DNA from: Pomacea canaliculata
Lineage: Eukaryota; Mollusca; Gastropoda; Architaenioglossa; Ampullariidae
Length of the DNA: 64,000 nucleotides
Reading direction: 5' to 3'
NCBI RefSeq assembly: GCF_003073045.1
Contig: NC_037593.1
Location: forward strand, 2,595,525 to 2,659,524
A model generated the notes under the pieces. That model worked only from the letters and a program-made list of their open reading frames with translations. It was not told where the DNA came from and made no database searches. Of the stretch, positions 1 to 64,000 are shown in pieces. Made by a program: the position numbers and the translations under genes. Positions within the stretch are counted from its first letter, which is position 1. Every line of letters begins with the position of its first letter.

Positions 1-111
1 CACATACAATAGATGATTCAGAGGAAAGATTTAAATCCTTGATGAATGAAATAACAGTAAATTTATTTTCCAATATCAAGTATCGACTACCATGGGAAAT
101 ACAAATGTGTG

Positions 112-176
112 CTGTCCCATCCCATCCCATCCCATGGGACGTTTCCCATGGGATTCCCATGGGATTCCCATTCCTA
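112..176. repeat. Short tandem/palindromic CCCATGGGATT repeat
   Basis: A run of CCATC pentamers passes into two direct copies of TTCCCATGGGA, each centred on the palindrome CCCATGGG. It is too short and simple to assign to a family. Confidence 0.6.
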
Positions 177-1379
177 TGGACAACACTGCATACTTTCACC
201 CTTTGTGGGTACAGACGCGACAAAGGTTGAGAATCTATGGACTAAGTTAAGTTCATTAATTGTGTTCCTCAGGTATCAAGCCAAGTATCCCTAAGCGTGA
301 GTTCGCCTTGTAATTAACGCGAGCATGGACGAGCGACTAGAGCAACCGGTAGAAGTGTGATGTCACGTGATCAGATTCGTGTTAACTCAAGATAATACGG
401 GTAGTGTTGTTTTACAAACCGCTTTCCCATCTATACCCGAACCCGCTGCTAAATGAAAGACGATAAGTGTACGTTGACCTTTGACTGTTGGACTTGAATA
501 ACATGAATGTAGGATTTTGACACATGTTGATACGAGGATTGCTGGCAACATAGAACGAGAAGCAGTTTAGTCTGTAAGGCTTTATCAGATAAAACCACGA
601 CAGTCTGCAGTTTCCCGTTCAGTTCCCATTACTTTTTTTTTTTTTTACCGAAAACGTTATCTTATCTCACCTGTCTTCGCCTTGACCTCGTTTTGTGTCA
701 CAAAGTCTCGATAGTTTTGTTCAGCTGGAGGCCTTTGCATGCGCCAACTAGGATTAAACGCAGCGGTCTGAACACCTGGAATGCTGTATATAGAGCACAC
801 CTGCACAGTGCTTCAACAGTCTGCTGACTCATCATCCCAAACAAGGTATAAATGCCAAACCTGCATAGCCTGTTTGACAGTTTGCTCACTGAACACACTG
901 CATGAATGTCAGACCAGTCAAATGAACATTTCAAACTGCAGGAATGTCAGACCACTGATACCCGTTTAACTGAACATCACAGGCGATGTATGAATGATAT
1001 AACTCTCCATCTCAAACAGTTTATAATATTAGCGTCCCAACAGTTTGTTGAAATGTTATGTAACTGTCAGATCTCAGTCACCTCTCCAGCAGTCTGACCC
1101 TCACCAAATTTTGCAGGGATTCTTATATTCACCTTAGACTATATGCTTGGATTTATGTTGTACTAATTAAATGAGCTTCTTTGTTTTCGTGTTTATTGTA
1201 TATGTATAAGATGTTACTGATGACTCAAATAATAAATTATTTTGCTTTACCGCAATAAATGCCGGCCTTCCCGTTGAATGTTGAGGCCAAAGCTGAATGC
1301 AGACTGACATGAAAGGTCAAATCCAAGTGCTGTTTTATTGCCCGTTTTCTTCTACAAAATAATAATAATTATTACAATC

Positions 1380-1380
1380 G

Positions 1381-1414
<34 letters not shown>
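1380..1414. repeat. (CAT)n microsatellite
   Basis: About eleven uninterrupted CAT triplets in non-coding DNA upstream of the FABP gene. Confidence 0.95.
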
Positions 1415-1417
<3 letters not shown>

Positions 1418-1725
1418 TCACTAAAAACACTCTTTGGTAGACATCAAATGGCAGGCACAGAAATCTGCGCTCCTGCAGCTTGTATATATGCTAATACCAG
1501 CAGAACTACAGAATCTTAACAGATAATAATTAAAAATAAAACGGTGAATTAGAAGCTTCCTGTGTTCTGGGTTCAAGGTTTGATCCACGTCGATATCAGG
1601 GTAATTAAAGTTCAGACCACCTATAAGAATAATCTCTCTGATCGCGCAAAGCCCATTATTTACCAGGCAATAAGGCCGACTTATTGGCAGATGATTTCGA
1701 CGGGAAAGCCGAAAAATCGTTTAAC

Positions 1726-6700: not shown

Positions 6701-8529
6701 GTATGTGGTTGTGTTCTGCTTCATTTTCCCCCATCCCATAGATGCTATAGAAGAAGTGTATATGGCATCAAGCCTGACGAGAGGGGGATGAGGTGTATTT
6801 TTTTTTTCCCTGGTGTAACATTGCTCACTCTAGGGATTTTTTCTATGAATCAAGATACTACCTTTAACATCATTTTTCCTCATTTACTAACCAATCACAT
6901 GTGAACAGCTCTATGTTCAAATAGCGATGTTGATTGTAGTGCACTTGTCCTAATGTTTGCAGTCTATATTACATTACTAACTGAATGTAGATATTGACAA
7001 TTGTAAACATCTAATTATATACTGGGAAAATAATTTACTATTTATTACAAGGGGCCCAGAGAGATCATCTGCCCCAGGGCCCATGCTGGCTCTCAGTGGC
7101 CCTATATGGTACTATTTTGTTTTTATTTTTGCATTATTCCCGTTCTAGAGTCTACATTCAATGTGTTTCGGAACTGTTGTTACTCAGTATCTTCTTTTAA
7201 AATTTTGTCATGCATTAGGTGTAGGAATGGTCATGCGAAAAATGGGAGGAGCATTGAAGCCAACGCAAGAGATCAAGGTCGAAGGAAATAAGTGGCACAT
7301 TAAAACTATTTCAACCTTCAAAACCACAGAGATCGAATTTACTCTGAATACACCTTTTGAAGAAACCACCATGGATGGTCGAAAAGTAAAGGTAACAGTT
7401 TGTTTGTTTTAAACGAGTTTTAAGTTTTCTTGAGCATCGTATTATATTATTGGGTCCTGTCAAACATCTGAAAAAGAAGTAGATTATATGGTGCATTGTC
7501 ACCAATGATTTAAACTCATTTTTTTTTCTACTCAAGAGTAAGGGAGCAAAGCAAGTTTCCCAGAAAATCATTTATGTTATACTATTACAGAATTGTAGGG
7601 TGGGGGTGTTATACTTTGTTACAAGTTTTACAACTGCAAGCATATGTTATTAAGTGCTGTGTAATAATAAGAACAAAAAGCTCTTGTATGACTTATGAAA
7701 TACTTTTCTATTTTCAGACAACGTGCACTTTAGAAGGCCAGAAACTAACGCAGGATCAGAAAGGGGACCCCGACTCCCTCATTACAAGGGACTTTGATGG
7801 AAATACGATGACTATGGTAGGTGTTTAGCAGCAACAAATAATGGAATCATGTTCTATGTACCACGAGCTTTGGTCATGTCAGTCCAAGATTTAACAGTTT
7901 CAAATGTGACTTCCATGTATTCCATGGCTTAGATGTTGTACTTGTGAGAGCTTGAAACATTATGTGACACAGCTTGAAACTTTGCTTAAGCGCTTGACAA
8001 AATTATTCAGCAGCGCTGAAACAAGTACTATATCAGTGAAGAACTCTCGAAATCGCTGTCGGTCTGAACAAGAACAAGCGCGTCATATAACATCATGAGG
8101 CACTTGAGTGCAACCACAAACTTATATAAATACACGTCCATGGTGCAACAGATTTTTATGATTGCTGAAGAGCAGTTGAAGTGTAATGAGGGAACTTAGA
8201 CGTTAAAGCTTTTTGTGACAATGCATTGGTTAGAATACGGTTAGGGTGTCAAGTGGATACTTTTAGATAGATTCATAACGAAGCCAGAACAGATCACAAA
8301 AAAATAGAGGACAGAATTTTGTTTACAAGAATTGAAGCTGTGTGGATACAGTGTTTTATGGCACTTTTCCAGAATGCCAAATATAGAGAATATTTTAGCT
8401 AGCAACTTCAAGGCCTGCTTGTAAATAAATAATAAAGCTAGTAAAAGAAAAAACACCATGTCCATGGGACAAATATATAGATAAATAAAGAAGAGGTGTT
8501 GGAATGAAAAACCAAGAAGAAAACAAAGA

Positions 8530-58579: not shown

Positions 58580-59566
58580 AAGACGAAGGCTTCCAAATAC
58601 AGATTGGCAGGACATTCTTGATTTAGCTGTCCAACAGTTTACCGGAAAGCTTGGATCATCTCCCCTGATAAACAGTTCTCCAGAGTTATAGCCCTTATGG
58701 CGGCAGGTTTGCTTTCTTCAGACTTCAGTGTAAACAAGTATATTTATATTTCTCCTCATCACGAGAAGGTACTCGCTGATCAGAGTTCACTTGTGATATC
58801 TCGCAAGTGTTTGAGTGATGAAACAACCCAATCTTCTTCTGTACTAGTACTACAAGGATGGACGTTTATTCGGAGGCTACAAACGACCTACCTTGGACTT
58901 AGTTTACCATTAGTTATTGATCGAGCTTAGGCTTGATCATTATCACTCTTGTAAATTTTCTTTAAACTATTTCTTTACACAGTAGGTAAAAGGAAATTGG
59001 AGGAGGGATAAGCAAGCAATAGAAAGATAGGGACAGAAAAGACAAATAGAGTTGCGAGACGGATGACACCACAGCAATTTCTACCCCCCTCCCCCCAACT
59101 CCTTTGAAGCATCATGAGCCTGCTGCCAAACATGACCAGTCAACACGCCAGTCTAGGGAAGGGATATCAAGAGCAGAAGTATTTCACTATTTTGCTATGC
59201 TGATGTTGCACACGTGTAAGCATGATTCAAATGAAGTGATAGATCAAAAGTTGATCTAAAATCATAACTGGAAAGTTTAGCAGAAATCAGCCTTGGTGAA
59301 ACTTGGCACTGCTAGTTTTATGATAAAATTGATCATTCCAAAAACCCACAATTACTTATGTCTTTGTTGGAGTCGAGTGGTATGCATTGCATGAGTAATT
59401 GCTCCAAAATGTTTTGTGACATCTGTATACAATCCAGAAATGCCTCTGTTTCAGAAAGAACAAACTTCCAATGAATATTTCTTGGTATAACAAAGGACTT
59501 TCTAAACCAAAAAAATTCACATTCATAAAAGACAACTAGGCATGCAAAGACATTCAAACATATCAA
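58580..59566. promoter_or_regulatory. Divergent MRPL18/STN1 intergenic region
   Basis: About 1 kb separates the MRPL18 start (minus) and the STN1 start (plus). A YY1-like CTTATGGCGGC at 58694-58704 lies 115 bases upstream of MRPL18 and is also an ATGGCGGCAG|GTTTGC sequence that could be a 5' exon end of STN1. The right part (59065-59310) is a dispersed repeat, so STN1's own promoter probably lies to its left or its first exon is spliced. Promoter assignment is inference. Confidence 0.4.
59065..59310 (+). repeat. Undescribed dispersed repeat, copy 2
   Basis: Shares ordered blocks with 27985-28235: TGACACCACAGCAATTTCTA, TTCAAATGAAGTGATAGATC and GCAGAAATCA. Non-coding. Confidence 0.6.
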
Positions 59567-62500
59567 ATGTCAAGTGCAGAAGAGACATCCGATAGGACAT
59601 TTTACCCACCTAAATTGTGGGGTCTGAGTTCTCTGTTCAATGTATTCAACAAGCTGTACATCAGAGACATCATTAGGCTGAAGCCTTACCCAGGATTTCC
59701 AGGTGAGACTAAAACATTATTGTGAAAGACATGTTTCCATATTTAGAGTATGTGTTTGTGCCTGTGTACACACACACAAGAGAGTATAGAATAGCTAGGG
59801 TAACCCACTTGATGCACTCTAAGTAACACAGTCCCAATAGCTTAGCTGCCACCAAACTTGTTTCAGCAAGAAGATAGGGTGGCAATTTGAATATAGAGGA
59901 TAAAAAAGTGTCTGTGTGGATACACAGTCATTGGGGTTTTGAGTAATTATGTAATGACATGAAAAAAAAAAGGCGACCAAACCAGGAAAACTTGTAGAAT
60001 CATGTGATGAAAGTTACAGTTGCAATATTATCAGAATGAATATAACTGAAGATCTTATGTTATTTGATCACTTTAGATTTAAAAAAATAGTAATGTTAAC
60101 TCAAGGCCTAAGCTGTAAAAGACTAGTTTTAGTAGTGTTTTCTGAATAAACAGTGAACACTATATGGTCTGTATGGTGGATTCATAATCATGAAAGTTGT
60201 GTAGCTCTTCAATATTGTTTTATGATTATGTAATTAAATATTATGTCAGTTACAGCTTACAAATATTGATATTTTTCACAGGTGCATTTGCTTATGGAAA
60301 TCATCCGGTCTTCAAGGTGGATGTTGTAGGTATTGTGGTCAAGGCAGAGGAAAAAGATAAAATATTTATTTATGCTGGTGAGTTCAACTAAATGAAACAT
60401 TTGTTACAAATGCTAATCATTTATCTAGTTTCATTTTTATTTATGTGAAGCACTAAAAATGTGTTCTGGATAGACAAAGGCACAGGCAAAATATTACATT
60501 CAAATGAATGTTTTTAAAAAAGATTTTTTTATTATTATATAAATACTAGTATTATACATTCTTATTATAAACAGTTGATGATGGAACGGGTGTTGTCAGT
60601 GCCCTTTGCTGGAAGAGACCATTCTCTTGGAGTGGTGAGTTCCTTCCCCATCCACCATCTTACTTTCCTCCCATATTTGTGTTGATGTGTGTGTTTTACA
60701 CATGACCATACATTCATGAATATGTTTGCACATTCCATGTAAAACTGATGCACTTAAACAGTTTCTACAAATCACGTAGAAAAATCACAGCCTTTAAAGA
60801 TGCTCTAAGAATGACCATTTGAAAGAAAGATGTCTAAGCAAAGCCATTTCTTATGTTAATTTTGTGAAACAACTCTAGAGTTATGTTCCCTTTAATTTTA
60901 GGCCATGTTGCCACACCTGGTCTGCCTACCGAACTCCAGTCACGGCTCACCAGGTGGCAGCAAGAAATAGAGGTTGCCTCTGGTTACCAGCTTGGACACC
61001 TGATTCACGTCCGGGGCAAGCTAAAAGTCTATCGCGGCATGATGGAGATTGTTGCTTCTTACCATCTTATCCTTCAGTACTTGTGGAAAGACTCTAGCAC
61101 TGTTTCTGAAACATTTTGCATTTTAGTTTTGATTTATTTGAGGAGAAAGTAAGGCTAGAAGATATGTGTATGCCACGATTCTGTCCTATCTTTAATACAA
61201 TGAAAAGAAACTAATCATGATGTCCACAGCTTAAGTGCATGAATTTGCATGCACATTGTACAGTTCATGCTATTTCCTTGCCGTAATATAGCCTCAGTTG
61301 CTGGCACGGCGTAAAACACCAATTCCCCCCCACCTCACAAAGTACACAAGCGATTTATAGCTAAAGAAAGATAAAACATCATCATTCTGATGTGTTAGAT
61401 TGCACTTCCATTTATCTCGTTAAAACAGATTGTAGTGATTTAGAGTATGTCTAATCCCAGACAACCAACTACTAAAGATACCATTTAATCATGATTTCAC
61501 TTTCTGCAGATTTTTTAAAAATTTGTGTTATTGGTGCTCTTTTATGTGTGTTAACGGGTTAATTAAGAGATGACAAAAGTTAAAGGCTGCTCATAGTTTT
61601 GGTCAGAGACTAAAAACTTATTACAAAAGTTATAAAGTATTTTATAAATGGTAGACGCAATTTTTTTTTTTTATCCCTTTATAGTTTATACCATGGATCA
61701 TTATTCTCTTATTCTACAGTGAGAAACAATTCAGTCTGCTATTTCTTGAGCTTTTCCTTAACTAAAATTAGGAAAAATAGAGAATCCATCTGAGCAAGTG
61801 GCTCGGATGATGGAATTGCCAACCCTGTACCGCCAGTGTTACAACAAGCCCTTTATCTTGCCCTGCAAACTAGCTCAAGAACTGCAAAACAGCAAGACCA
61901 CCAAAGAAAGTGGGCAGGGCAATCAGGTGCATCATGTTAAATTTGAGTCTATATGTATATTTTAGCTTGTTTTTATTTCTGTACAGTGCACTGAGCCTAC
62001 TTTAAAGTGAGGGAAATGTGCTTCAAAAATACTATAATTATTGTTTTTATTATATTTATTCTTTTTTCTTATCTCTTATTTCAAAGAATTCAAATCTCAA
62101 GTGTCTTTTCCAAACACACATACCTTAATGAATATCCATGCAATCTATACATCAACCAAAACATAAGTTTATAGAGACCAGACAACACAGCATCAAAAGG
62201 ACCAAGATCTTGCATGACTTGGTATGCAGTGATTGCTTTTTTACTGCAAAAAAGTTCATTTGTCTGAAAAATTAAATGCTTAACTCTTGTGCAGGCTATC
62301 AACATGGTTGAACTGACTGGCAAAATTAAGCTGCTGCTTAAACATGGTTTTCTGTCAGAATTTTCCTTTGGAGATTTGCTTGAGCAGCTGGAGAACTCTG
62401 ACTCTGAGGCAAAAGTGGTAAGTTTCATTGTCTCTTCTCACTTTCGTGTGAATTTTTTAAAGGTAGCTTGGGTAAATAAAGTTAAAATAAATATTAATTG

Positions 62501-62627
62501 TTAAGAACTTGTGTGCCTTTGAACATCCACACACAGGCAGGAATATGCTTGTTTTATGGACAGCCAAGCTGCTGGTTTTATTCATGTTCATAAAGCAGAA
62601 CTTGTTGAAATGATTGCTCCAGCATGA
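59567..62627 (+). CDS. STN1: CST complex subunit STN1 (OB-fold telomere-end protein)
   Basis: Exons at 59567-59702, 60282-60377, 60575-60634, 60902-61066, 61772-61926, 62295-62417 and probably 62541-62627 give about 273 aa (human 368). The start MSSAEETSDRTFYPPKLWGL leads into KLYIRDI, as in human STN1 (LLWGLDPV..KLYIRDI). The OB fold follows: NHPVFKVDVVGIVVKAEEKD, VDDGTGVVSALCWKRP, LIHVRGKLKVYRGMMEIVAS and VARMMELPTLY, each with a clear human counterpart. STN1 with CTC1 and TEN1 binds single-stranded telomeric DNA and recruits polymerase alpha-primase. Most of the C-terminal winged-helix half seen in vertebrates is absent here. The last exon is chosen because it is in phase, open and ends in TGA; retention past 62417 would instead stop at about 62504. 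The intron after exon 4 looks U12-type. Confidence 0.9.
61067..61771 (+). other. STN1: Probable U12-type (minor spliceosome) intron with TT-AG ends in STN1
   Basis: Exon 4 must end in phase 1 because exon 5 starts with two bases before the AAA codon of KIENP. No GT gives that phase near the homology boundary. Cutting before TTATCCTT does; this matches the U12 donor (A/G)TATCCTT at seven of eight positions, with T at +1. Directly before the acceptor lies TTTTCCTTAAC, a perfect U12 branch-site match, about 10 bases from AG. The joined codon is CGA (YHR-KIENP). Confidence 0.7.
61278..61326 (+). repeat. Tail of a mollusc-type SINE-like repeat, copy 2
   Basis: TTGCTGGCACGGCGTAAAAC followed by ACCAATTC; matches 4678-4726. 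It lies within the U12-type STN1 intron. Confidence 0.6.
62577..62582 (-). terminator. Candidate poly(A) signal of the HSD3B-like gene
   Basis: AATAAA on the minus strand, 64 bases after the stop at 62646. It lies opposite the proposed last STN1 exon. Confidence 0.55.
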
Positions 62628-62645
62628 AATTGATGGCAAAGTACA

Positions 62646-64000
62646 TTACAGCTCTACTGTTCTGTAATAAGCTATTGATCTTTGTTGAGCTTCTTGCACA
62701 GAAAATACTGGGTGGAAATCAAACATTCTTATTGCTTTATCACCCTTAAAATAAAGATCCATGTTGATATACTTAAGACTGCAGGATTCTGTTCCTAAGT
62801 TTATCTTTATCAGGGGAGATAAAGCATACAACAGACGTTCCAGCAGATAGACTGTTCCATAAACAAGTGAAAAGGGCAGATAATACGGTGACAGACTGTA
62901 GCCACGGCACTTGAGATAGGGTTGCATGAAACTGAAGCTGTTCTGGAGTGGAGTTTGATCAGGAATGTAAAACACTTCTCCTCCAATGTCCGCATTGTTG
63001 TACAAAGCTGTATCAGCTTGTACGAAAGCTGTAGCCACATTTCCAACATAGCATTGCTGGAACAGTGACTGGCCTCTGCCAACTCGCACTAACTTTCCTC
63101 CTCGAGACTTTGCACTGCGAAGGCCAGTTGTCACATAGTATGGATCAAGTTCTCCATACATGACATTTGCTCTTAGTGAAACTGTGTTCAGATATCTACC
63201 TGCAGAGAGAAAATCAAAATATTTATGCTTGTTTAGGCAGGATATTACAGACAACAAGTATCCACTATAGTTCAGTCTTGTTACACCATCTTGATTCTGC
63301 TGGCCAAAACAAAGATACATATCTAAACAAGGGGCCGTTGGCAGGATACTAACAGGAGTTTCTTCTCATAAAGTGATTCATCTTTTGTGCTACAAATATT
63401 TTCCATGATTAGACGACTGAATAATATTTATATTCTTAGATTTATATTTCAGATATTTGTGCACAAACAATTATCCAACAGTGTAGCTCATCTTATATTT
63501 TCTTTGATCGGATTTACATTAATTCTCTAACTTTTTAAAACACACACATAAGCACTTAAACATTTTAATGTGTATGTTTCCATTGCTGCTGTCTCTATTT
63601 TTAAATTTGGGGGCCAGTGAATGCCTGCCTACATTATTAAATATTCTAATAATCATCAGCAAAAATCAATTTAGCTGTCAAACAGGTATATATTATTATC
63701 TCTAAATATTCTATGTATGTCATCATGAACTGATTTCTTTAAAAGATTTATGTAATATTATTGTGAGCTATGTTATACATTTAGATGAGTTCATTATACA
63801 CAAAAAGTATTTATTATACTGCCAGGGTCACAGACTCATAGAAAGGTGATGAAACTAAAGGAAACAAAAACATTTTACAAACCATTTAAGGTTTTTTTCC
63901 CATTCGATGTAACAACCAATTGCTCAGCCTGAAGCTTTGTGAGTGGGTAACTAGGAAATAAGAACTTGTCTGGAATAAAGGTGTTTTCTTCTGTACCACC
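62646..64000 (-). CDS. 3-beta-hydroxysteroid dehydrogenase-like SDR enzyme, 3' part (partial)
   Basis: Two exons are visible on the minus strand: 63883 to beyond the window end, and 62646-63199. The upstream exon ends in phase 1 and joins the next as TLN-G-RYLNTVSLRANVMYGE. The first visible exon carries the SDR active site YxxxK (SYPLTKLQAEQ). The second has LRANVMYG and QQCYVGNVATAFVQAD, matching the LRP..IYG and YVGNVAWAH blocks of 3-beta-HSD, a hydrophobic C-terminal segment (YYLPFSLVYGTVYLLERLL) and the end YYRTVEL. Enzymes of this family oxidise and isomerise 3-beta-hydroxysterols or related substrates using NAD in the ER or mitochondrial membrane. The N-terminal Rossmann part lies outside the window. 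Which paralogue it is cannot be decided. Confidence 0.9.
62750..62755 (+). terminator. Candidate STN1 poly(A) signal AATAAA
   Basis: First AATAAA after the proposed STN1 stop at 62627; it lies antisense inside the last exon of the HSD3B-like gene. Two other AATAAA hexamers near 62475-62490 would serve the read-through form that retains the last intron. Confidence 0.35.

Follow-up and report, generated by a model that had tools for sequence, protein, structure and literature searches.

The first and last bases of an intron are among the strictest rules of splicing, and all NU-AN combinations of ends were reportedly tested by Dietrich in 2005. Nineteen introns without a GT, GC or AT donor were found in U12DB, six of them being annotation errors and six of the other 13 unambiguous (PMC2831892). 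The unambiguous odd U12 introns are represented by CT-AC introns in mouse and rat Trappc9, GG-AG introns in SLC12A4 and SLC25A30 and a GA-AG intron in zebrafish actr10, and a CU-AC construct was spliced correctly with lower efficiency (PMC2831892). In the part of PMC4176328 available to us, A or G alone are named as functional at the first position of U12 introns, from database and mutational work, a summary that speaks against T at +1, and the TT-AG junction of human ETV1 is presented there as constitutive and annotated. Minor introns with AT-AN ends depend on CENATAC, according to the accessible text of PMC8280824, and non-canonical ends have been found in around 3.8% of orthologous animal minor introns, among which TT-AG may be included as far as the excerpt goes (PMC10639083). 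No description of a U12-type TT-AG intron was found in those sections of the splice-site literature that we could consult, and TT-AG is absent from the main text of PMC7072748; such ends, according to one paper, are frequently treated as possible artefacts. Neither did we find a literature link presenting OBFC1 as U12-type or STN1 as minor intron-containing. The intron analyzed here is very probably of U12 type and, with TT-AG ends, would be a variant of a class in which rare odd donors such as CT-AC have already been reported.

STN1 belongs to the telomere-associated CST complex, as one of its subunits, and participates in telomere maintenance. The gene is located on the + strand of the window (the whole stretch of DNA that was analyzed, 64 kb in length), from position 59567, and its identity, already proposed by a sequence-only reading, was supported by an E value of 4.6e-46 against human STN1 (PDB) and by a Pfam Stn1 match of 23.6 bits versus a cut-off of 21.5. 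Coding exon 1 (59567..59702), with the ATG start and followed by a GTGAGA donor, could be aligned to the human protein; exons 2 (60282..60377) and 3 (60575..60634) have GT-AG flanks; exon 4 (60902..61066) ends in phase 1 (...VASYH + C); exon 5 (61772..61926, beginning KIENPSEQVARMMELPTLYRQCYNKPF...) was again aligned to human STN1, and exon 6 (62295..62417) is followed by further exons past the window, in the adjoining 10 kb (L018), all of the six in-window exons being on the + strand. When joined, these six exons give one open frame of 245 codons. The later exons in the adjoining 10 kb correspond to part of the C-terminal half, with a weak second match to human STN1, and our model covers the six in-window exons, the exon 8/9 joint beyond the window not being settled. 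A protein search of the genome revealed no second copy of STN1, since the eight matches obtained (14 of 14 candidates scored) were all within the gene. Beyond exon 6, a large intron of STN1 contains, on the minus strand, a 3-beta hydroxysteroid dehydrogenase stretch (62646-63365; PF01073, E 6.6e-16) that perhaps runs on into L018 (~100-1450, minus strand). An open frame with a zinc-protease motif, which we take to resemble a matrix metalloproteinase, is also present in L018 (~7428-8012, minus strand).

The proposed U12-type intron, of 705 nt and with TT-AG ends, lies between exons 4 and 5 (61067..61771, + strand). The exon before it ends in ...GCTTCTTACCATC, and the sequence from 61067 is TTATCCTTC. 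Exon 5 requires one base ahead of GA AAA ATA, which only a phase-1 donor can provide. This joint results in EIVASYHRKIENP, as compared with EIHATTYYKVDDP in human STN1, gapless at the junction and with a two-residue gap after it, and both the coordinates and the phase argument of the earlier reading were upheld. The expected spliced junction for TT-AG is ...TCTTACCATC/GAAAAATAGAG and, with the His codon kept, ...TACCATC/GAAAAATA. A stop at 61150 closes the frame of exon 4, and the phase-1 sites with GT, GC or AT between 60930 and this stop are one GT (60983), five GC (61016, 61034, 61037, 61097 and 61118) and three AT (61031, 61064 and 61136). All 1772 donor/acceptor pairs that were in frame without a stop (donors 61010-61259, acceptors to 61799) were scored against the human STN1 segment. 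The TT-AG pair 61067/61771 scored 131, while the best values were 120 for the eight GT-AG pairs, 123 for the 15 GC-AG pairs, 116 for the three AT-AC pairs and 127 for the 17 AT-AG pairs (61064/61771, with one residue lost). Thus, no GT or GC donor in phase, as expected for a U2-type intron, kept the homology, residues being replaced in the pairs scoring 120 and 123. Six other odd-ended pairs equalled or exceeded TT-AG (136, 132 in three cases and 131 in two), so that TT-AG was chosen on account of the U12 motifs and the terminal AG. Regarding the central claim of the earlier reading, a U12-type intron with TT-AG ends, the class was strongly favoured by these motifs, whereas homology alone failed to single out the ends.

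The U12-type donor TTATCCTT (61067..61074, + strand) agrees with the consensus TATCCTT at seven of seven positions from +2 to +8, and at most four of seven were matched anywhere else between 60930 and the stop. At +1 (61067) T was read, at odds with the G-or-A rule of the GT-AG and AT-AC minor subtypes, and +9 is C, where the consensus has T. Both the intact +2 to +8 stretch and the departing first base had been pointed out from the sequence, as had a perfect U12 branch site near the AG, which was located at 61754..61762 on the + strand (TTCCTTAAC, 9/9). The pattern TTCCTTRAC occurs only once in the window on both strands, and this same site is unique in 268,000 bases when both strands of the window and of seven 10 kb loci are considered. 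The AG comes nine bases after the branch motif, and the branch A is 10-11 nt away from the end of the intron, a distance that reaches or falls slightly short of the optimum of 11-13 nt between branch and 3' splice site in U12 introns (PMC3584512). This 3' splice site (61770..61771, + strand) has no polypyrimidine tract and gave a U2 acceptor score of -4.11, compared with 4.78, 4.25, 3.51 and -2.81 for four further acceptors of STN1, using human base frequencies. In our model, the chance per position was 7.2e-5 for TATCCTT and 1.1e-5 for TTCCTTRAC, and the joint chance of both motifs in place was 1.1e-7 with the 10 donor positions near the edge of the homology, 8.3e-7 with all 74 phase-1 positions and 4.9e-4 if one mismatch was permitted per motif, values that are uncorrected for the free choice of target in the sequence-only reading.

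Elements of the minor spliceosome were also identified in this genome, with at least one match over the cut-off for U11 snRNA (5' start AAAAAGGGC), U4atac and U6atac (carrying AAAGGAGAGAAGG), and at least two for U12 snRNA, both with the branch-pairing segment GAGTAAGGAAAATAA; the best candidates alone were scored and these counts are lower bounds. The two U12 snRNA matches (C6:27474998-27475147 and C6:27472237-27472387, with 117.1 and 66.3 bits) are around 2.6 kb apart. Predicted duplex energies with the U11 and U6atac of this genome were identical for A, G and T at +1, and the C at +9 loses a predicted pair with each of them (-4.0 versus -4.5 kcal/mol for U11, -5.1 versus -5.7 kcal/mol for U6atac). 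A duplex between the U12 snRNA of this genome and TTCCTTAAC, with a bulged A, was also predicted. Exons of the CENATAC family were found in the genome, and no convincing SNRNP48 (U11-48K) was identified in a relaxed search, after examining three of its 15 weak matches. Two strong matches to PF05253 (zf-U11-48K) correspond to CHHC zinc fingers that lie next to each other (C4:23821637-23822268); this pair was set aside as SNRNP48 because it looks, by resemblance, like what we presume to be a GTSF1-type gene. A scan of 59500-64000 with Rfam at the gathering threshold gave no match. Given the donor and branch motifs, the phase and the snRNA genes present in the genome, 61067-61771 is very likely to be a U12-type intron that, +1 apart, is intact.

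Two presumed U12 introns of the same genome, with ATATCCTT donors, were used as yardsticks. Their donors are ATATCCTTTTAT in PROX, where the acceptor region is TTTCTTTAAC...AC, and ATATCCTTTCAG in KCMF1. The KCMF1 site was picked by eye for its KCMF1-like flank, its acceptor was not located, and this resemblance, together with the exact positions of both introns, is an assumption on our part. Since these donors were found by means of any base followed by TATCCTT, a pattern with one site in the PROX region (30 kb) and three in the KCMF1 region (20 kb; +1 being C, A and G), they provide circular evidence at +2 to +8 and are useful solely with respect to +1, which is A in both, a sample of two that says nothing about the rarity of T. 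In the part of PMC2831892 that we could consult, KCMF1 is entered as AT-AC and U12, and PROX1 as Twintron and U12. A genome-wide search for TTATCCTT plus AAAA within 30 bases was uninformative, with 2173 forward and 4007 reverse sites versus 3759 and 2066 in the reversed control.

The intron harbors an interspersed repeat fragment (61276..61344, + strand) of a ~60-bp element with core GTTGCTGGCACGGCGTAAAACACC, which looks like the end of a SINE; among the matches listed, at least 40 are elsewhere in the genome, 39 of them with 91-100% identity and one with 80%. There is also a fair U2 donor, AAA/GTAAGG, at 61149 (score 3.16), as well as three U2-like acceptors, with their ends at 61509, 61684 and 61719 (the last one being TTATTCTACAG), and the 61149 and 61719 pair has the layout of a U2-in-U12 twintron. 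This nested intron was rejected, a comparable U2 pair being present in 6.2% of 2000 random 705-nt stretches of the window and its product reaching a stop. The same sites could be taken to indicate that the exon 4/5 junction is of U2 type elsewhere, or involves an unseen microexon, and that the U12 motifs are there by chance. We regard this as highly improbable: the four joins from 61149, to 61509, 61684, 61719 and 61771, all lead to an early stop, the best in-frame GT-AG pair (61102/61794) swaps RKIENPSE for unrelated residues and uses a donor, ACT/GTTTCT, that is poor by inspection, nested U2 pairs are found in random stretches at the frequency given above, and the chance of the U12 motifs is ~1e-7 to 8e-7. 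Hardly better is the prospect that the minor spliceosome binds the donor and cleaves three bases upstream (61064..61066, + strand), removing an AT-AG intron (61064-61771) with the loss of one His (CAT codon), an option that we added to those considered in the earlier reading. This cleavage point is in frame, A is permitted at +1 in minor introns, and its homology score is close (127 versus 131); however, pairing with U11 and U6atac would begin three bases too deep in the intron, a gap versus human STN1 would be opened, and AT-AG has been described as disfavoured (PMC3584512).

A different set of alternatives, an error or an allele at one base as already envisaged in the earlier reading next to a genuine TT-AG intron, keeps the intron where it is and concerns the T itself. 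An assembly or base-calling error at 61067, the true base being A or G, would explain that the one strictly conserved donor base is the one departing while all other U12 features agree. Nevertheless, it seems unlikely, if less so than the alternatives above: the six in-window exons give a single open frame, and the PacBio contigs were Pilon-corrected with deep Illumina reads, as stated in the available part of the assembly report (PMC6129957), which makes a plain base error less likely. The main rival is a U12-type intron that has a normal donor (GT-AG or AT-AG) in the majority of the animals, the T being a minority allele present in the assembled haplotype and impairing splicing. Essential splice bases are normally depleted of variation, which argues against this possibility, and we consider it doubtful, yet clearly more plausible than a sequencing error, because of a heterozygosity of 1-2% in the animal sequenced and the loss of alternative contigs: the 440.1 Mb P. 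canaliculata assembly was obtained from a single field-collected adult, discarding alternative heterozygous contigs, according to the same portion of PMC6129957. High diversity in resequenced P. canaliculata has also been described, at least in the accessible sections of PMC11417965, and neither a retrocopy nor a second haplotype of the intron locus was detected here, the 41 matches being the locus itself and 40 repeat matches (the best 40 of 1678 candidates).

Minor introns are recognized by the U11/U12 di-snRNP, and U6atac is then exchanged at the donor. Our preferred explanation, to which we would assign a probability of around 0.5, is that 61067-61771 is a U12-type intron of STN1 that would be removed by the minor spliceosome at C/TT...AG/GA, the T at +1 being genuine and having replaced an ancestral G or A. 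The di-snRNP would bind both intron ends together, U11 pairing with the donor from +4 onward and U12 with the branch site, its A bulged, and U6atac would later take the donor over, none of these pairings being expected to involve +1. The first three intron bases are unpaired with U11 and read by U11-48K, in the text of PMC3584512 available to us, and according to this source the U12 class is defined by the donor and branch sequences and not by the terminal dinucleotides; from these two facts we infer recognition by U11, U12 and U6atac. The cost of the T would fall at the U11-48K contact (+1 to +3) and at the meeting of the intron ends (+1/-1) in catalysis, and splicing would for this reason be expected to be slower, with more retention; a retained intron would reach the stop at 61150. 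A slow, retention-prone step of this kind may possibly limit STN1 output. More tentatively, the T might be present in most animals as a fixed, functional U at +1, the minor spliceosome tolerating a pyrimidine at this position with a terminal G, given good pairing with U11, U6atac and U12. Should this be true, a fixed natural UU-AG minor intron would represent an unusually relaxed splice site, and its presence in a single-copy telomere gene would offer a clean in vivo test of the extent to which pairing elsewhere offsets a wrong +1. Pipelines accepting canonical ends alone would miss or mis-model such an intron.

With respect to known systems, the STN1 intron shares with the GT-AG and AT-AC U12 subtypes the TATCCTT stretch, TTCCTTAAC, a short distance between branch and AG, the lack of a polypyrimidine tract and, as a terminal feature, the AG end, but its first base is T, while theirs is G or A. 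CENATAC-dependent AT-AN introns, as far as they are described in the text available, have ends other than GT-AG, like the STN1 intron, and a lower splicing efficiency, as predicted for it; in this case the difference is that they begin with A. The TT-AG junction of human ETV1 has the same termini as the STN1 intron, its U2-like or U12-like class not being given in the portion of the source consulted. The CT-AC, GG-AG and GA-AG introns are classed as U12 despite one departing base among the first two, as would be the case here; unlike the STN1 intron, all six have a base other than T at +1, and each of them has orthologous canonical introns.
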